Source of the DNA: Kordiimonas sp. SCSIO 12603
GTDB lineage: Bacteria; Pseudomonadota; Alphaproteobacteria; Sphingomonadales; Kordiimonadaceae
DNA: 64,000 bases
Reading direction: 5' to 3'
Assembly (NCBI RefSeq): GCF_024398035.1
Contig: NZ_CP073748.1
Location: 239,501 to 303,500, forward strand
The notes beneath the pieces were generated by a model, which saw only the letters and a list, made by a program, of their open reading frames with translations, ran no database searches and was not told where the DNA came from. The position numbers were made by a program, and so were the translations under genes. Shown piece by piece: positions 1-43,501 of the stretch. The first letter of the stretch is position 1. Each line of letters starts with the position of its first letter.

Positions 1-1695
1 CACCTCTGAATTTTTAGGGTAAAAATGCAGAGCAATCCTGTAGAAATCTTTCGCTATAGTCTGTTGATTATTCTCAGCCGCATACGCCGCTTCCTGTAAA
101 AGATTACGCACAGTTAGAAGGCTACTTTCAGGCACTTCCTGTTTCCAGGCTTTATAAGCCGCTAGAGCGACATCAAATTGCCCTTCATAAATAAGGTCAT
201 ATGGCAACTTATAACCGGGTGTTAATTTTCTGAGAGCATAGGCCTTCGAATTCATGCCTTTACGGCCCATAGTTAAGTACCATGATTGATCAGAAGGATT
301 CTTTTCGATGGTAATTTCACTTCCATTGAATTCATCCATCTTGAACCTGCCTTCTCCGATATGAATAAGCTTTCGAGGGGCTCTGCGTTTGATTGAATTA
401 TCAAGCCACAAAGCACCATCCCGCTCTTCAATTGTCACTACTTCATGAAACGGAGACCAATACCCCGTGTTCAAATTCCGGTAATGCCCAACAATACGGG
501 ACCGCACTTCTTCAGGTATATCCGTCTCACTTACCTGAATCTCTCGCTTCCACCCCAGTGTTTTAATAGTTGTTGCGATCACTTCATTAATGGCAGGCAC
601 CCGCACACGGTGAACCCCATTTCCAAAAGCAATAATAGCTTTTCCGCCTTCCATACTGCCCATTACAGCACCGCCAATACCGGTGTTATAGCCAAGGTGC
701 GAAAACCAATCGAGATTACCTTGCGCTTCATACCTCGCCCAACCCAGGCCCCAGCCCCCAGCTTTCTTAAATGTCTGAATCGATGTAACAGTCTTCGCCA
801 CCCAAGGAGAAATCACCTTTGAAGGCTTGTTGGCAAGTGCTTTCTGCATATCCAAAACCAGCTTCGCCATATCTGCAGCGCTACTCCAAACACCACCTGC
901 TGCCTGTTGTGGGTTAATAAGAACTCCACCGTCACCAAAATGGCTTCTGTCAAACGCATGAGCTTTAGCCACATTCTTCGGGAATTCCTTATGCCCGACC
1001 TGATGCATGGTCGTATTTCGCATACCAAGTGGATCAAACAACATTTCTCTTGCCAATTCTGGGAGTGTTTTTCCTGTCACATCCTCTATTGCTACCTGTG
1101 CTACAACAAACCCGCCGCCACTATATTTAAACCGCTGCCTGGGCTCCCACATAATAGTAATAGGCTCCTTGTAGCGGGCCAGCTTCTCACCATTCAGGCT
1201 TTCAATCAGAGTGGGAATATCGTCACCCGGATAATAATCAGCAAACCCGCTTTGAGATGTTCCTGCCGTGTGCGTTAGTAGGTGGCGCAGTGTAATAGGC
1301 TGGTATTTATTGAAGTCGCTTTCAGGCAAAGACCAACGCTTCAGATATTCTGAAACAGGTTTATCCAAATCCAGCACACCTTGTTCCACCAGCAACACAG
1401 CAATAAGGCCTGTAATAGCCTTGGAAACGGAAGCCGTTGAAAAAGCAGTATCAGGATCAACCAACTGGCCTGTTCCGTAGTCTTTTTCTCCAGCACCGAT
1501 GAGATGAACAAGTTCATAGTTATCAATGACAGCGACCGACAGGCCAGTAAGTTGGTGCTTTTCAAGGAGCTGGTCGTATTGGATTGTCTCCTTCAGGCGG
1601 ATATCAACCCTGTCTTCAGCGCATGTGATAGCACTCACCGCAAAAATGGTAGCCACACCGATAATGCTGTTTTTGATAATTGTTGGTATTTCCAT
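1..1695 (-). CDS. Serine hydrolase, beta-lactamase/PBP-like (family S12), 3' end outside window
   Basis: The reading frame runs open from ATG at 1695 to base 1 (565 codons, no stop seen), so the C-terminus lies beyond the left edge. A Sec-type signal peptide (about residues 1-26, ending ITCAED) points to the periplasm. The S12 motifs are in order: SVSK (SxxK, nucleophile Ser89, general base Lys92), YSGGG at 191 in place of the YxN motif, and HLG at 333. Residues after about 370 form an extra C-terminal region with no catalytic motif I recognise. The family includes class C beta-lactamases, DD-peptidases and esterases; the substrate cannot be read from the sequence. The gene is divergent from the membrane LytTR gene at 1805. 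Two LytTR-type sites at 1770-1799 are oriented toward this gene, so activation by a LytTR protein is a reasonable inference. No clear Shine-Dalgarno is visible. Confidence 0.88.
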   Translation of the reverse strand, partial: MEIPTIIKNSIIGVATIFAVSAITCAEDRVDIRLKETIQYDQLLEKHQLTGLSVAVIDNYELVHLIGAGEKDYGTGQLVDPDTAFSTASVSKAITGLIAVLLVEQGVLDLDKPVSEYLKRWSLPESDFNKYQPITLRHLLTHTAGTSQSGFADYYPGDDIPTLIESLNGEKLARYKEPITIMWEPRQRFKYSGGGFVVAQVAIEDVTGKTLPELAREMLFDPLGMRNTTMHQVGHKEFPKNVAKAHAFDRSHFGDGGVLINPQQAAGGVWSSAADMAKLVLDMQKALANKPSKVISPWVAKTVTSIQTFKKAGGWGLGWARYEAQGNLDWFSHLGYNTGIGGAVMGSMEGGKAIIAFGNGVHRVRVPAINEVIATTIKTLGWKREIQVSETDIPEEVRSRIVGHYRNLNTGYWSPFHEVVTIEERDGALWLDNSIKRRAPRKLIHIGEGRFKMDEFNGSEITIEKNPSDQSWYLTMGRKGMNSKAYALRKLTPGYKLPYDLIYEGQFDVALAAYKAWKQEVPESSLLTVRNLLQEAAYAAENNQQTIAKDFYRIALHFYPKNSEV

Positions 1696-1721: not shown

Positions 1722-1727
1722 ACTATA
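1722..1727 (-). promoter_or_regulatory. Putative -10 element of the serine hydrolase gene
   Basis: On the minus strand this reads TATAGT, close to the TATAAT consensus, about 27 bases before the ATG. The region where a -35 box should lie (about 1744-1750) has no good match and carries a small inverted repeat (GGCAG-GTTT-CTGCC, 1747-1760). A weak -35 next to the LytTR sites is what an activator-dependent promoter would look like. This is inference from sequence only. Confidence 0.35.
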
Positions 1728-1769
1728 AATAGGGTAATAACTTTTCGGCAGGTTTCTGCCTGAGTTCGG

Positions 1770-1799
1770 TAAACGGTATAGTCTTTCCCATAAACGGTA
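1770..1799 (-). promoter_or_regulatory. Tandem LytTR-type binding sites, 21-bp period
   Basis: The plus strand carries TAAACGGTA at 1770-1778 and again at 1791-1799, a spacing of exactly 21 bp. Read on the minus strand, the distal copy is ACCGTTTAT, which fits the published LytTR half-site pattern [TA][AC][CA]GTTN[AG][TA] at all nine positions. The proximal copy (ACCGTTTAC) fits at eight. Tandem half-sites about two helical turns apart are the known LytTR operator layout. The sites point toward the serine hydrolase and also lie directly before the start codon of the LytTR gene at 1805, so they could serve activation, autorepression or both. Confidence 0.6.
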
Positions 1800-1804
1800 C
1801 ATGG

Positions 1805-3319
1805 ATGTCATACACAAAAACATCTCTGATAAAACTCCTTAGCCAGGTAGTTCTTTGCTGGATTATTGCCACGCAAGCTTCACTGGCCGAAGATAAATTC
1901 ACCCATATTAAAGATGTAACCATCTGTTACAGCGATGCTGCTTCAATGCCAAATTTCGAAGATGCAGGCTGCACTAAAACCAGTTTCTACGACGTTAAAC
2001 CACATAAGAAGTCAGCTTGGGTTAAAGCAACTGTCACAATCGCTGACGAGATATTAAAGCAACCAGAACCACTGGGACTTTTCATCTCAGGCACCATTTC
2101 AAGCAGTTTGTATTGGAATGGGTCTCTACTTGGGCACAATGGGAAGCCAGCCTCTAATTCAGTGGATGAAATCCCCGGAAAAATGGATGCCGTCTTCTCC
2201 TTACCACGCCAGCAAATCAGAGCAGGGAAAAACAACCTCATTATCCAACTATCGAACCATAATAGCTATATCGCTCTGAAATCGCCGATACATTATCTTG
2301 CTATTGGTCCTTATAACCATCCGCCAAATGTTGCTTTAAAGAACTATCTACCCTCAGCAATACCCTTGGGCATTTTACTGGTAGGTGTATTTTATTTTGG
2401 TTTTCAGGGGTTCCGACAGAAGAATATATTAGAAGGGCTCGCCTTGCCGCTTGGTGCGCTTTTCACTGTGTTACAGCTTCTTGCCGAAATCACCCGCGGG
2501 CTCTTTCAGTATGAATACCCCTTTCAGGAAATAAGGCTTATTCTCGTAGCCCTTTTCTCAGGGCTAACGGGTAGTTTCCTGTTTTATTATATATTCCAAA
2601 AGTTCTGTCCCAACATCAGATCTATCTATTTTTTTGCTAGCCTTCTTATGCTGCAATTGCCGGCAGTTGTAGAACCATCCTTTAATGACAAAGCGGCCTT
2701 TGCCATGCTTGGACCAACGATAGGAGCTTTTCTGTTAACGAGCCACGGTATTTACAAACAGAAACTTCATGCAAAAATCTACACCGTGGTACTTTTCGTG
2801 TTCGCAACCATTATTGTCGCCGCACCTAATGCATTTTTAGATACCTATTATTATTATTCCGTAGCCTTGCTCTTTATCTTTTTATTCTGGGATCACGCCA
2901 CTTTACTGGAAGAAAAGCGGGCGCTCTTGCGCTCGGAACAAAAACGCGCCGACAAGCTACAACTGGTCTTGGAAAGCAAGCGGGAAAATGACAACCCAAG
3001 CATAATCCAGATTTCAGAAGCAGGGAAAATCAAACGTATCAACACGACCCAGATCATCTACTGTCAAGCAGCAGGCGATTATGTAGAAATCTATCTTACA
3101 GGCGGAGAGACCTTATTGCATACAGCAAGGCTTTCTAAATTTGAGGAAAGCTTGCCTAGCAGTTTTATGCGCGTTCACCGATCTTATCTTGTGAACACAC
3201 ATCATATTCTTGAACTTGTAAGAGAAACATCCGGCCAAGGGAGTTTAAAACTTACAGAGACGCAGACCATTCCTGTGAGCCGCAGAATCATGCCGCAGGT
3301 CAGAAAAGCTTTATCCTAA
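1805..3319 (+). CDS. Membrane-anchored LytTR-domain transcriptional regulator
   Basis: A 504-residue one-component regulator. Residues 1-29 look like a signal peptide. A periplasmic region of about 140 residues follows, resembling the beta-jelly-roll sensor found ahead of 7TM receptors (its GKNNLIIQLSNH segment parallels the GKNIISVRFSAH segment of the kinase at 40797). Next come about six or seven transmembrane segments (roughly 180-360), a charged, probably coiled-coil linker (about 365-400), and a C-terminal LytTR DNA-binding domain (about 405-500, with the conserved core IIYCQAAGDYVEIYL and FMRVHRSYLVN). There is no kinase or receiver domain, so signal and DNA binding would be joined in one membrane protein. 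The start is fixed by the signal peptide, although no clear RBS is visible. The gene converges on pyrF with a 9-base gap. Confidence 0.85.
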   Translation: MSYTKTSLIKLLSQVVLCWIIATQASLAEDKFTHIKDVTICYSDAASMPNFEDAGCTKTSFYDVKPHKKSAWVKATVTIADEILKQPEPLGLFISGTISSSLYWNGSLLGHNGKPASNSVDEIPGKMDAVFSLPRQQIRAGKNNLIIQLSNHNSYIALKSPIHYLAIGPYNHPPNVALKNYLPSAIPLGILLVGVFYFGFQGFRQKNILEGLALPLGALFTVLQLLAEITRGLFQYEYPFQEIRLILVALFSGLTGSFLFYYIFQKFCPNIRSIYFFASLLMLQLPAVVEPSFNDKAAFAMLGPTIGAFLLTSHGIYKQKLHAKIYTVVLFVFATIIVAAPNAFLDTYYYYSVALLFIFLFWDHATLLEEKRALLRSEQKRADKLQLVLESKRENDNPSIIQISEAGKIKRINTTQIIYCQAAGDYVEIYLTGGETLLHTARLSKFEESLPSSFMRVHRSYLVNTHHILELVRETSGQGSLKLTETQTIPVSRRIMPQVRKALS

Positions 3320-35556: not shown

Positions 35557-36714
35557 ATGTACATGAACAAAACTATACTTAAATTATCTACCAAAAATCC
35601 TATAATAAAATTTATCCGATTTATTTTTATAATCTTTATTTGGGGATTATTCTCTCCCATAAGACTTTTCATACCCAAAAGGAAAAACCTATATCTTTTT
35701 GGAAACAATAAGGGGTCTATTGATAATAGCTATTATTTGATGGATTATCTATCTAAAAACTTTCCAGATCTAGATTGCTTTTGGGTTAATCGAAACTCCA
35801 TGGAGATATATTCTTTACGTTCCATATGGCTACATCTCAGAGCTTCCAAAGTATTCATTGTAAACGGTAAAACAGACATCCTTATATGGTTGGTAGGCCA
35901 CGCAGAAATACACAATTTATGGCATGGTATACCTATGAGGAAAATTAGACTAGACGATGATATGCAGCATGGTTTGAATAAATGGTTTATTGCATTGAGT
36001 GATTGGTTAACCCCAGCTTTTCATTACGTAAATTCTGAGTACGAACGGAATATAATAAAGTCAGCTTTCTTCAGACAAAAAGCAATCCTAGAAACAGGCT
36101 CTCCGCGTACAGATATAATTTTACATCAAAAAGCTGCGAATATAGCTGAAACATCAACTACACCTACCGACATAAAAAAGGTACTGTATGCGCCAACTTG
36201 GCGCCCTTATGATAGTCCCTCCCCCCTTATGTCTGTTGATGACTGTGAATATATCAACAAAGTTTGTCAAAAAAATAACTTAATATTGTATATCCGTGCT
36301 CACTTTTTAGAAAATATTTCAATCGAATCACAAGCTAGGTTCCCTTTGATTCAAATTTGTGACAATGATAACGATGTAAACACCGAACTAGATCAATACG
36401 ACATACTAATATCGGACTATTCTTCAATAATTTTTGATTACTCGTTACTAGATAGACCTATTTTTCTTTATACACCTGACATCGATTTGTACTCTGAAAA
36501 AGTAGGCTTTTACTTAGACTACAAAGATTTTGTGGAAGGCAACAACTATACAAATTGGAAAACCTTGATGAAAGCCTTGAGTTCTTTAACTAATAAAAAG
36601 CTCCTAGAAAACAATCTGGTTTTGAGCTCTAAGTTCAAAAAGCTAGGGCATACTTTTACGGATGCTCGGAATATGAAACGAATTGCCGACTTTGCTATAA
36701 AAGGAAAATTATAA
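35557..36714 (+). CDS. CDP-glycerol glycerophosphotransferase-like protein (TagB/TagF family)
   Basis: 385 residues. The C-terminal GT-B-like domain has the family motifs YAPTWRPY and DILISDYSSIIFDYSLLDRPIFLYTPD, where the conserved Asp/Ser/Ser residues contact CDP-glycerol. A hydrophobic N-terminal stretch (about 18-38) precedes it. In Gram-positives TagB and TagF prime and extend poly(glycerol phosphate) teichoic acid. Here, with the TagD-like gene at 38296, it suggests a glycerol-phosphate substituent or backbone in the surface glycan. The 240 bases before it hold no gene that I can see. No clear RBS; ATG 35563 is an alternative start. Confidence 0.85.
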   Translation: MYMNKTILKLSTKNPIIKFIRFIFIIFIWGLFSPIRLFIPKRKNLYLFGNNKGSIDNSYYLMDYLSKNFPDLDCFWVNRNSMEIYSLRSIWLHLRASKVFIVNGKTDILIWLVGHAEIHNLWHGIPMRKIRLDDDMQHGLNKWFIALSDWLTPAFHYVNSEYERNIIKSAFFRQKAILETGSPRTDIILHQKAANIAETSTTPTDIKKVLYAPTWRPYDSPSPLMSVDDCEYINKVCQKNNLILYIRAHFLENISIESQARFPLIQICDNDNDVNTELDQYDILISDYSSIIFDYSLLDRPIFLYTPDIDLYSEKVGFYLDYKDFVEGNNYTNWKTLMKALSSLTNKKLLENNLVLSSKFKKLGHTFTDARNMKRIADFAIKGKL

Positions 36715-40085: not shown

Positions 40086-40793
40086 TTAATTAAGCCTCCC
40101 CCTCAAGGCAGCTAGGTAACTACGGCCAACTGGGATGTGCACACCATCCAAACACTGTAGTTCATACTTGCTGCCAGGAAAACTCTTAAGGGCTTGTGTC
40201 TCTAGTAAATTCACACCGTGTGATTTATGAATCCGCTGGAAATTATCTGGGAGCAGCAACATCAGCTGCCCCAGGCTTTTCTCGTGGAAAAGGTTACTAC
40301 CGTTTTTCAGTATAATCTCACAGTATTTGTCATCTGCTTTAAGGCGTACAATATCTACCACCTGAATGAGCTGAGTTTTTCCGGCATGCCTTACTCCCAG
40401 GAACTGTGCTTTCCCTGCACCCGTGTGCTTACCTTGACTAGCCCCACCCAGCTTCCCAAAAGCTTGTTTCAAACGCTCTTCCGTAAAGGGTTTTGCAACA
40501 AAATCCACCACACCATACTCAAACGCTGTTAACGCCTGATCTGTATTCGCGGAAACAATAATTGTTTGAAAGTTGCGCGCCACTATACCCGCGAGCAAAT
40601 CAAACCCGCTCTCTCCACCCAAGTTTAAGTCCAACATCAAAACATCTATTTCATGGTCTGTGAGAAATTCTTCCGCATCTGAAACACATTCTACTGTCTC
40701 TAAGAGGCGAAGGTCTGGCCCAATAATTTCGCGTGTCATCCTAGACAGCGCCTTGGCCACCATATGCTCATCTTCCACAATCAATATGCGCAT
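40086..40793 (-). CDS. LytTR-family response regulator
   Basis: 235 residues. The receiver domain (about 1-118) has the acidic pair in VEDEH, phospho-acceptor Asp55 in LMLDLNLGG and Lys in VAKPF. The LytTR DNA-binding domain (about 135-232) has DIVRLKADDKYCEIILKNG, FQRIHKSHGVNL and IPVGRSYL. It is encoded 3 bases after the membrane kinase, so the two form a two-component pair. A 21-bp-period direct repeat upstream of the kinase gene (42609-42641) is the obvious candidate target. Confidence 0.93.
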   Translation of the reverse strand: MRILIVEDEHMVAKALSRMTREIIGPDLRLLETVECVSDAEEFLTDHEIDVLMLDLNLGGESGFDLLAGIVARNFQTIIVSANTDQALTAFEYGVVDFVAKPFTEERLKQAFGKLGGASQGKHTGAGKAQFLGVRHAGKTQLIQVVDIVRLKADDKYCEIILKNGSNLFHEKSLGQLMLLLPDNFQRIHKSHGVNLLETQALKSFPGSKYELQCLDGVHIPVGRSYLAALRGRLN

Positions 40794-40796
40794 CTA

Positions 40797-42566
40797 CTAT
40801 CTCTTAGTTTCCAATTTAATCTTGGTTACCCAGTTGCCTGTGTGGTTCATGCCATCTTCAAAAAGATAACCCTCACCCCAAACATCCTTCATACGTGCTC
40901 GCACATAACTAAGCCCTATCCCACCTGTCGTAACCTTCCTTTTCAACGGCTCACCAGAGGGTGCAACCAGCTCATATTGAAGCTGCCCATTCGGTAGAGT
41001 AAGCTGCTCTAGCCTGAAAGGTCCCACATCCTTCTTAAAACGCGTATGGGTCATGGCATTTTCAATAAGTGTATGAAAAATCGCAGGTGGGACTAGGGCT
41101 TCACCATCCTGCACACTGGTCTCAAGCCTGAATTTCACATCTTTTCGGTAACTCATCAGCTCAAGGTGAACATTACAAAGCTCTATCTCCCTAAACAAAG
41201 GAATAGATTGCTCTCCCGCTATTTCCCGAAGAATTCTAAATTCACTCGCAAGAGCATGGATCATTTTCACCCCAACATCGGGATTTTCACGTATCCATTC
41301 AGCAAGTGCTGATAGCGTATTCATTATAAAATGTGGCTGCAGGTGGCTCTTTAAAAGCTCAAGCTCCAATCTTTCAGACAGCAGAGAAATTTCAAAAGCT
41401 TCACGGCGTTTATGTTCAAAGGCAATGGCTTGCAAAACAAACAACACCACCGAAAGCGCAGACATATAGTAATAATAATAATTGCTCAGATAGATATCTT
41501 GCTCGAAGAAAAAGCCTGTGGAAAACAGAAGTAAAACGAGTAACACCAATTTCCCATACGGATGCTTTTTTCGCGCAGCATACAGAGCAGCTATAATAGC
41601 CAGTAAAGTATATAACCCCGTGCTTAGAAACAGCCCAAACTCTATGGAAAAACCCTTTAAAACAACGGGGGTCACTAATAACAGAACAGGAAGGATCCAT
41701 GTGTAAACCCAGGGCCTTAAAACTGTAATATCAAGGCGGTTTGCCACAAATCGAAACAGAAAAACCCCAGCATAAATACGGCAAACGTACCATAGATAGA
41801 GCCATAATATATGATAGGAATACGGGTATGAATATAGGGTAGCAAGAATACCAAGCAGCAACTCCACCCATGCCAAAGCAAACATAGGCGCAAGCCATAT
41901 TTCGGCATCAACCTTTCGCCGGATAAATGCTCCCATAAGGAAAAACACTGCCGCAGTAAAAATACTGCCTGTCATCATTAAGAACGGTAGATAATCCTCG
42001 AAGGCAACATGCCCCTTTTCTTCAAGCGGCATTATAATCGCAACGACTTCCAATTCTGGCTTCAGAAAACTCCATTTCTCACCAAAACCATGTGCAGAAA
42101 AGCGAACAGAGATTATATTTTTGCCTTCGTGAAGGGCATTAACACGAAGCGGGAAAATACGGTGCACTCTACCCGGCTGTTCACCTGCACTGGTTTGAGA
42201 TGGAACACCGTTTGAACCAACCTGCTTACCATTGATATAAATCACTGAGGTAACAGTACTATACATTGTTATCGCCAGCGGGCGCGGCTGTTCAAACATC
42301 CCTACCGGCACATCTATTTCTGCTCTCAGCCAATTAACCGGTTGATCAGTATCATAGTCAAAATCGCTAAGGGTAACCCAGTTCCCACTTTGAAAAGGAG
42401 CCGCCGAAAACACCCTTTTATCCTCTCGGGAAACCTCAAAATCTCCAAGGACAACTGAAGGGAACTCTTCCTCGCCAGGCATTGAAACACTGCCGTAAGA
42501 TATCAACATCGCACCAAAGAAAAGCGCAATGAATACAAATTGAAATATAACGTGCTTTATTTTCAT
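40797..42566 (-). CDS. Membrane sensor histidine kinase, LytS/His_kinase (PF06580) type
   Basis: About 589 residues. The order is an N-terminal signal/anchor, a periplasmic jelly-roll-like region (about 40-175), seven or so transmembrane segments (about 185-395), then a kinase core with the phospho-acceptor region LLKSHLQPHFIMNTLSALAEW, the N-box in FHTLIENAMTH and the G-box in GGIGLSYVRARM. It signals to the adjacent LytTR regulator. The sensor part has the same layout as the one-component LytTR protein at 1805. ATG 42566 is preferred over TTG 42575; no RBS is clear. Confidence 0.9.
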   Translation of the reverse strand: MKIKHVIFQFVFIALFFGAMLISYGSVSMPGEEEFPSVVLGDFEVSREDKRVFSAAPFQSGNWVTLSDFDYDTDQPVNWLRAEIDVPVGMFEQPRPLAITMYSTVTSVIYINGKQVGSNGVPSQTSAGEQPGRVHRIFPLRVNALHEGKNIISVRFSAHGFGEKWSFLKPELEVVAIIMPLEEKGHVAFEDYLPFLMMTGSIFTAAVFFLMGAFIRRKVDAEIWLAPMFALAWVELLLGILATLYSYPYSYHILWLYLWYVCRIYAGVFLFRFVANRLDITVLRPWVYTWILPVLLLVTPVVLKGFSIEFGLFLSTGLYTLLAIIAALYAARKKHPYGKLVLLVLLLFSTGFFFEQDIYLSNYYYYYMSALSVVLFVLQAIAFEHKRREAFEISLLSERLELELLKSHLQPHFIMNTLSALAEWIRENPDVGVKMIHALASEFRILREIAGEQSIPLFREIELCNVHLELMSYRKDVKFRLETSVQDGEALVPPAIFHTLIENAMTHTRFKKDVGPFRLEQLTLPNGQLQYELVAPSGEPLKRKVTTGGIGLSYVRARMKDVWGEGYLFEDGMNHTGNWVTKIKLETKR

Positions 42567-42608
42567 GAACCGCAAAATATCACGAAACCAGCCTTTGTCG
42601 TCGGCTAT

Positions 42609-42641
42609 TTTGAGCAGTTGGCCTATAGGTTTGAGCAGTTG
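42609..42641 (+). promoter_or_regulatory. Direct repeat with LytTR-type spacing in a divergent promoter
   Basis: TTTGAGCAGTTG occurs at 42609-42620 and again at 42630-42641, a 21-bp period. A partial inverted copy (CTGCTCAAAA) lies at 42650-42659. The CAGTTGG/CAGTTGA cores fit positions 2-8 of the LytTR half-site pattern. A possible -35 box TTGACG (42639-42644) overlaps the second copy. The repeat lies between the kinase gene and the outer-membrane protein gene and is oriented toward the latter. Confidence 0.55.
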
Positions 42642-42736: not shown

Positions 42737-43501
42737 ATGAAATACGCAACTTTACTAAACAGTCTATCAACTGCCACCCTGATCTTTGGAGCATTATCCT
42801 TAATGCCTACCGCACATGCCGATGATGCGCCCGAGCTTTCCTATACTTTCATCGAAGGTGGCTACCTAACCACCAGAAATGGCTTAAGCGGTTCGGTGCA
42901 AGATGGTGATACAGCAATTAATTTTATATCTGCAGACACGGATGGTTTTTTCGGTCGCCTCTCTTACCAATTTGGTGACAACATGTATGTTTGGGGTGAC
43001 TTCTCTCAAAACAAATATGAACTGGCAGCATCTACCCAGACAGGTGATGTATTTACAAATGCCTTCTACAGCTTAAAACCCCGTCGGTACATGGGTGGCT
43101 TGGGTATCTTCCATGAGCTTGATGATAACTTCCATCTGTTTGCAGAGGGTGGTATTGCCGTTACCGATTTCAGCCTCAAGCTAGCTGGGGTCAACACTGG
43201 CCCTACTGGTGATTTACTGAATGTTGTTAATTTAGCATCATCCAATACAGAAATTCATGGCACCGCCAAAGTCGGTTTGCGTTACATGACGGAATTTGGT
43301 CTGGAACTTAATCTTGCAGGTTCGTGGGCCGGGGATAGCCGTATCAAAGCCAATGATGCAGGAAATGATTTCCGTATAGCAGATGAATATGCGGGCGAAG
43401 CAGGGCTTAGATATCATTTCAATGATAAAATATCGCTTGGCGCTTCGTATCGCAGAACATCGGAAAATACATTTCTAGGTTCTGTTCGGTTCAGCTTTTA
43501 A
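42737..43501 (+). CDS. Outer-membrane beta-barrel protein
   Basis: 254 residues with a signal peptide (about 1-28, ending PTAHAD). Alternating hydrophobic/polar strands and Gly/aromatic-rich turns follow, and the C-terminus is Phe (LGSVRFSF), the classic outer-membrane insertion signature. It resembles small OmpA/OmpW-like or porin-family barrels; no specific ligand is evident. The RBS is GAGG seven bases before the ATG. It is divergent from the LytS-type kinase gene, with the direct repeat at 42609-42641 in the promoter region, so it is a likely target of that system. Confidence 0.82.
   Translation: MKYATLLNSLSTATLIFGALSLMPTAHADDAPELSYTFIEGGYLTTRNGLSGSVQDGDTAINFISADTDGFFGRLSYQFGDNMYVWGDFSQNKYELAASTQTGDVFTNAFYSLKPRRYMGGLGIFHELDDNFHLFAEGGIAVTDFSLKLAGVNTGPTGDLLNVVNLASSNTEIHGTAKVGLRYMTEFGLELNLAGSWAGDSRIKANDAGNDFRIADEYAGEAGLRYHFNDKISLGASYRRTSENTFLGSVRFSF

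Follow-up and report, generated by a model that had tools for sequence, protein, structure and literature searches.

Two exact copies of TAAACGGTA, at 1770-1778 and 1791-1799 with starts 21 bp apart, lie between a gene for an exported serine hydrolase and a divergent gene for a membrane regulator of the LytTR type in the window, that is, the whole 64-kb stretch of DNA that was analysed. A sequence-only reading had proposed tandem LytTR half-sites aimed at the hydrolase gene. Our results make it quite probable that the repeats are the operator of the adjacent regulator, and that they would serve the signal-dependent activation of the hydrolase within a tiny regulon, with a probable limitation of the regulator itself. 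The components of the locus are as follows.

1..1695, minus strand, running off the window edge (genome 239477-241195): exported serine hydrolase of 572 aa, PF00144 (beta-lactamase/S12 fold), E 6e-56
1766..1799, minus strand: predicted LytTR operator of 34 bp, with 13-bp extended half-sites TCGGTAAACGGTA and CCCATAAACGGTA (plus-strand letters) at a period of 21; top pair of the window, among the top three sites genome-wide, conserved
1769..1777, minus strand: proximal 9-bp half-site ACCGTTTAC, separated from the distal half-site by 12 bp (sequence and family matrix)
1790..1798, minus strand: distal 9-bp half-site ACCGTTTAT (sequence and family matrix)
1805..3319, plus strand: membrane LytTR regulator of 504 aa (gene call, profile search, structure model)
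1913..2311, plus strand: predicted periplasmic beta-sandwich sensor domain, residues 37-169 (AlphaFold2, pLDDT 83; Foldseek matches to beta-galactosidase-type sandwiches)
2321..2992, plus strand: seven predicted helices, the last one long and reaching into the cytoplasm, residues 173-396 (AlphaFold2 model)
3002..3313, plus strand: LytTR DNA-binding domain, residues 400-503 (PF04397, E 5e-24; Foldseek matches 3d6w, ComE and AgrA)

The PF04397 match of the regulator, 84.7 bits against a cut-off of 22.6, places it among the LytTR transcription factors. Its structure model (pLDDT 83) consists of a signal helix, the beta-sandwich, seven helices and the LytTR domain. The earlier suggestion that the membrane sensor itself carries the DNA-binding domain is therefore borne out by profile search and structure model, in which sensor and LytTR domain are fused. 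The beta-sandwich has a weak Foldseek match to the sugar-binding-type domain of beta-galactosidases; WLS-like Foldseek matches, with an rmsd of 18-24, were disregarded. The hydrolase belongs to PF00144 by its family profile, and its catalysis is predicted.

The word TAAACGGTA occurs three times in the 64-kb window, where 0.32 occurrences are expected; the third copy, at 35861, sits within a coding gene and was rejected as a coding coincidence. The coordinates and the 21-bp spacing given for the operator pair were correct, both copies being exact. Read on the minus strand, the half-sites are ACCGTTTAT (1790-1798) and ACCGTTTAC (1769-1777), and they match the LytTR consensus, which reportedly goes back to Nikolskaya and Galperin, at 9/9 (distal) and 8/9 (proximal) positions, as had been counted. 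Three 21-bp pairs in the window, the operator pair among them, score 17/18 by this loose consensus, so the evidence of the sequence-only reading was by itself weak, and the consensus was dropped as proof. When a matrix trained only on other species was used, the pair at 1770-1799 was the best 21-bp-period pair in the window (27.1 bits, next 12.2), and model R1, a sequence-only covariance model trained without the window, gave it an E of 1e-4. The half-site TCKGYRARCGGYA is the complement of the LytTR type ACCGTTTRC, and the arrangement typical of LytTR operators, direct repeats of 9 bp with a gap of about 12 bp and a -35 element downstream, is present as 9-12-9 in the window and its relatives. 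The repeats are very likely a LytTR-type operator.

Conservation was followed in relatives of the regulator. By protein search, 18 of 30 genomes of the family contain a full-length regulator with 32-92% identity, and a scan of named genomes added relatives from Marinicaulis, Parvularcula, Maricaulis, Henriciella, Asticcacaulis and Robiginitomaculum, as well as from Pseudoalteromonas, Bowmanella, Planctobacterium, Aliikangiella and Marinibactrum. Since 385 genomes sampled evenly across the class yielded one new relative only, the order was searched instead. Counted with no motif model in 39 intergenic regions, the commonest CGG-CGG spacing is 21, with 44 pairs from 32 loci, against 1-28 pairs at other spacings. 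Leave-one-out matrices gave a mean best score of 24.4 bits at an offset of 21 and of no more than 9.3 at any other offset. Repeats and period are retained in 38/38 training relatives (the site of L064 is weak, with 9.4 bits leave-one-out), and each of the 38 loci attains p 0.0033, the lowest value that the shuffles allow. These shuffles were mononucleotide and the sites had been chosen as maxima, and for this reason a held-out test was added. In 8 of 11 held-out loci, the eight closest ones, the 21-bp pair ranked first among all pairs of the locus, both strands considered, and each of the eight has a divergent alpha/beta hydrolase, identified from its sequence. The site is missing from the remaining three loci, which are more diverged; two of them (L208, L209) also lack the hydrolase, which is present in L207. 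The conservation of repeats and period together with the gene pair, proposed earlier as a check, is thus seen in essentially all relatives, the closer held-out loci included.

The site is also specific. A strict genome-wide pattern was matched equally often when reversed, and it was replaced by the covariance model. By model R1, the 3.85-Mb genome has only three strong sites (>19 bits; next 13.9 bits), namely that of the window, that of a paralogous module, which was a training site, and one at 973562-973594, all three located just upstream of exported serine hydrolase genes. Across 121 genomes of the order, there are 11 matches with E<=0.003, all of them in genomes of this one family and at exported serine hydrolase genes; nine lie between a paired regulator and hydrolase, and the other two, orthologous to each other, stand at a PF00144 gene with no regulator beside it. 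Several of the 11 are training sites; independent evidence comes from these last two sites and from the lack of matches elsewhere. A third or fourth half-site is present in several loci (L040, L060-L062).

The direction of control was approached through the promoter geometry, for which the candidate elements are listed here.

1753..1758, minus strand: candidate hydrolase -35, CAGAAA, 10 bp past the proximal half-site (family consensus xTGAAA; spacing as in PMC6193735)
1731..1736, minus strand: weak candidate hydrolase -10, TACCCT, 16 bp from the -35 candidate, suggested by the family geometry
1722..1727, minus strand: alternative hydrolase -10, TATAGT, that of the sequence-only reading
1777..1782, plus strand: putative regulator -10, TATAGT, inside the operator, conserved in a 92%-identical orthologue

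Promoters activated by LytTR proteins have 9-bp repeats separated by a 12-bp gap and usually 10 bp between the repeats and the -35 element (PMC6193735). On the minus strand, towards the hydrolase, the window reads as a 9-bp repeat, 12 bp, a 9-bp repeat, 10 bp and the -35-like CAGAAA. In the family, TGAAA keeps a fixed place, with the hexamer starting 10 bp past the 9-bp half-site, or 21 bp past the start of the proximal extended half-site, and with 0.92 bit at position 10. The distance of 75-104 bases between site and hydrolase start had been given correctly, and the operator lies 61-77 bp from the hydrolase start in about half of the loci. The activator-type geometry claimed earlier is hence upheld, in that the site ends 10 bp upstream of a -35-like element that is supported by the family. 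The TATAGT on which the claim relied (1722-1727) is present as a sequence. As a second -35 candidate with family support, CAGAAA, stands at exactly 10 bp from the proximal half-site, a different -10 may be the one that is used.

The sign of control at the hydrolase is not certain, since CoxC, another alphaproteobacterial one-component membrane protein of the LytTR type, is a repressor. The regulator could likewise repress the hydrolase until released by its signal, which we regard as unlikely although worth weighing: the CoxC operator overlaps the -35, whereas in this locus a gap of 10 bp separates the half-sites from the family -35-like element downstream, and the hydrolase -35 and -10 candidates of the window are poor, as is fitting for activator-dependent promoters. 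Activation of the hydrolase through the site is the probable outcome.

The regulator side of the intergenic region differs in kind. With the relatives aligned on the operator, information content revealed no fixed element there. When the ATG serves as anchor instead, most of them have a loose TAnnnT about 8-14 nt upstream, with no clear Shine-Dalgarno sequence; this combination was noted in L040, L051-L056, L061, L062, L072, L075, L076 and L080. A TAnnnT so near to the ATG, with no clear Shine-Dalgarno sequence, suggests near-leaderless regulator transcripts, and these are probably leaderless or nearly so. The site had been said to touch the regulator start codon; in fact the distal repeat stops 5 bp before the ATG at 1805, and an ATG at 1801 belongs to another reading frame. 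In relatives the distal half-site abuts the putative -35 of the regulator, and in the window the candidate regulator -10 lies inside the operator. Autorepression is plausible from a site that abuts or overlaps a predicted promoter.

It could even be argued that the site serves the autoregulation of the regulator alone, with the hydrolase as a passive neighbour, given that in many relatives the distal half-site is 34-38 bp from the regulator ATG, beside the -10-like TAnnnT. We hold this to be very unlikely. The orientation of the half-sites and the conserved TGAAA belong to the hydrolase side, and in two species the same operator precedes an S12 hydrolase gene that stands alone, with no regulator adjacent. 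The first of these is the third genome site, 85 bp upstream of the S12 gene (gene at genome 972200-973477; gene and site together L154:2701-4095, genome 972200-973594), with an RTX-repeat gene on the opposite strand across the site 973562-973594. In the second species (G011), the operator of the orthologous site is 70-78% kept and the adjacent flanks 43-59%. This extra site shows that the operator accompanies the hydrolase, and not the regulator alone, and the lone S12 gene is predicted to be a regulon member controlled in trans. S12 genes are numerous in the genome (28 matches); in one further instance, a LytTR response-regulator gene is followed directly by a co-oriented S12 hydrolase gene (L178:1615-4143, genome 1756114-1758642).

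Moreover, every partner of the regulator is an exported serine hydrolase, despite unrelated folds, which also speaks against a passive neighbour. The 40 loci with a visible neighbour, from Alpha- and Gammaproteobacteria, comprise 30 alpha/beta hydrolases, nine S12/PF00144 proteins and one trypsin with ankyrin repeats, L039 being classed through the neighbour of its 92%-identical orthologue and L079 by sequence rather than by Pfam. All three partner types occur in G011, each with its own regulator copy and operator. The trypsin partner (L057, G011:C23:305000-314000) carries its ankyrin repeats at the C-terminus, an unusual combination for an exported protein. The regulator tree calls for two or more partner changes when strongly supported branches alone are counted, and for five on the best tree; the S12 locus L064 and the alpha/beta locus L055 form a sister pair with 100/99 support. 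One regulator and one site combined with three unrelated hydrolase folds suggest an exchangeable sense-and-secrete module.

Nine LytTR domains are encoded in the genome, eight of them in proteins other than the regulator, and one of these might be the main binder, e.g. the response regulator of a two-component locus in the same window.

40086-42575, minus strand: LytTR-type two-component locus, with the regulator at 40086-40793 and the kinase at 40797-42575

This is a slim prospect. The operator follows the regulator, being present in 15 of the 18 family genomes that have it and in 0 of the 12 that do not (n=30), and nearly all of the regulator-less genomes carry other LytTR proteins. The two-component locus, in turn, has its own, different conserved repeat. 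Between this system and an outer-membrane beta-barrel gene (42737-43501, plus strand), TTTGAGCAGTTG forms an exact 12-bp direct repeat with a 21-bp period (42609-42641), and relatives of the locus keep TGAGCAGTT-type repeats 20-21 bp apart; this repeat probably marks a second LytTR operator whose half-site differs. The N-terminal sensor region of the histidine kinase (40797-42575) is 27% identical to that of the membrane regulator, with the motif YINGKQVGSNGVP.., so that one sensor type appears in one- and two-component versions within 40 kb. As for the operator, binding by the adjacent regulator is likely. A chance resemblance, for which one could cite the two further window pairs that equal it by the loose published consensus, is contradicted by conservation, held-out prediction and genome-wide specificity and can practically be dismissed.

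From the computed site, its conservation, geometry and specificity, and the exchange of partners, we infer binding by the regulator, activation rather than repression, autorepression and a signal. Two membrane-anchored LytTR domains would occupy both half-sites from the same face of the helix, 10 bp upstream of the divergent gene's -35, and a signal at the periplasmic beta-sandwich/seven-helix sensor would lead to transcription of the exported serine hydrolase. Occupation of the distal half-site probably also limits expression of the regulator, because this half-site abuts its promoter in relatives or covers it in the window. The regulon would be tiny, with strong sites at the linked hydrolase, the paralogous alpha/beta hydrolase module and the lone S12 hydrolase. 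Points that weigh against this reading are the poor -35 and -10 candidates of the window, the eight further LytTR proteins, the weak site of L064 and the lack of a site in L207 in spite of its hydrolase. The exchange of partners invites the speculation that the signal is tied to what exported serine hydrolases act on. More tentatively, and with the balance somewhat against it, the locus may be a sensor-operator cassette with exchangeable output, in which selection keeps an exported serine hydrolase and not its fold, and the sensor reads a substrate or product of such enzymes outside the membrane, in a feedback loop.

Few targets or operators are known for the membrane-anchored LytTR regulators of alphaproteobacteria, and for one family, operator, layout and minimal regulon are now defined, and nature has supplied a partner-exchange experiment, so that a single reporter plasmid suffices to test signal and output. 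Furthermore, the model predicts targets in other genomes, including hydrolase genes with no adjacent regulator.

Several known systems resemble the one described here. HigX of Caulobacter crescentus is a transmembrane one-component LytTR regulator, found throughout the alphaproteobacteria, with a divergent putative hydrolase of COG4188 (Brejndal et al. 2026, PMC13384398). HigX shares with our regulator the membrane LytTR architecture beside a divergent hydrolase gene, but it has four helices and no periplasmic domain where the window protein has a beta-sandwich and seven helices, and its ChIP motif is an inverted repeat rather than a 21-bp direct repeat. The partner in the window is of PF00144 and not of COG4188, which sets the locus apart from HigX, and HigX is not known to show an exchange of hydrolase folds or to have an operator assigned to its hydrolase. 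The HdrRM/BrsRM systems have membrane-controlled LytTR proteins and the same layout of 9-bp direct repeats, a 12-bp gap and usually a -35 another 10 bp on (Zou et al. 2018, PMC6193735). In those systems, however, the inhibitor is a separate membrane protein and the repeats activate the operon of the regulator itself (PMC6193735), whereas here there is one protein and the repeats face the divergent enzyme gene; downstream of the LytTR gene, no such inhibitor gene was found, the next gene being pyrF on the other strand. CoxC, from an alphaproteobacterium, is likewise a one-component membrane LytTR protein with seven helices and an operator of direct repeats (PMC11347149), but it has an MHYT sensor and three repeats overlapping the -35, and it represses CO-oxidation genes (PMC11347149). 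The MHYT domain had no match in 20/20 members of the regulator family, which places them outside the CoxC subfamily. With 7TMR-DISM receptors and LytS-type 7TM kinases, the structure model shares a periplasmic beta-sandwich followed by seven helices; the architecture agrees, while the Pfam 7TMR-DISM_7TM profile has no match in the window protein and weak ones in 3/20 relatives (best 5e-4). In the open-access literature, none of the HigX, CoxC and HdrRM-type systems has this sensor, this operator or an exchange of hydrolase folds. Taken together, a membrane LytTR regulator with a divergent hydrolase was already known from HigX, and what is new here is the sensor, the operator and the exchange of partners.
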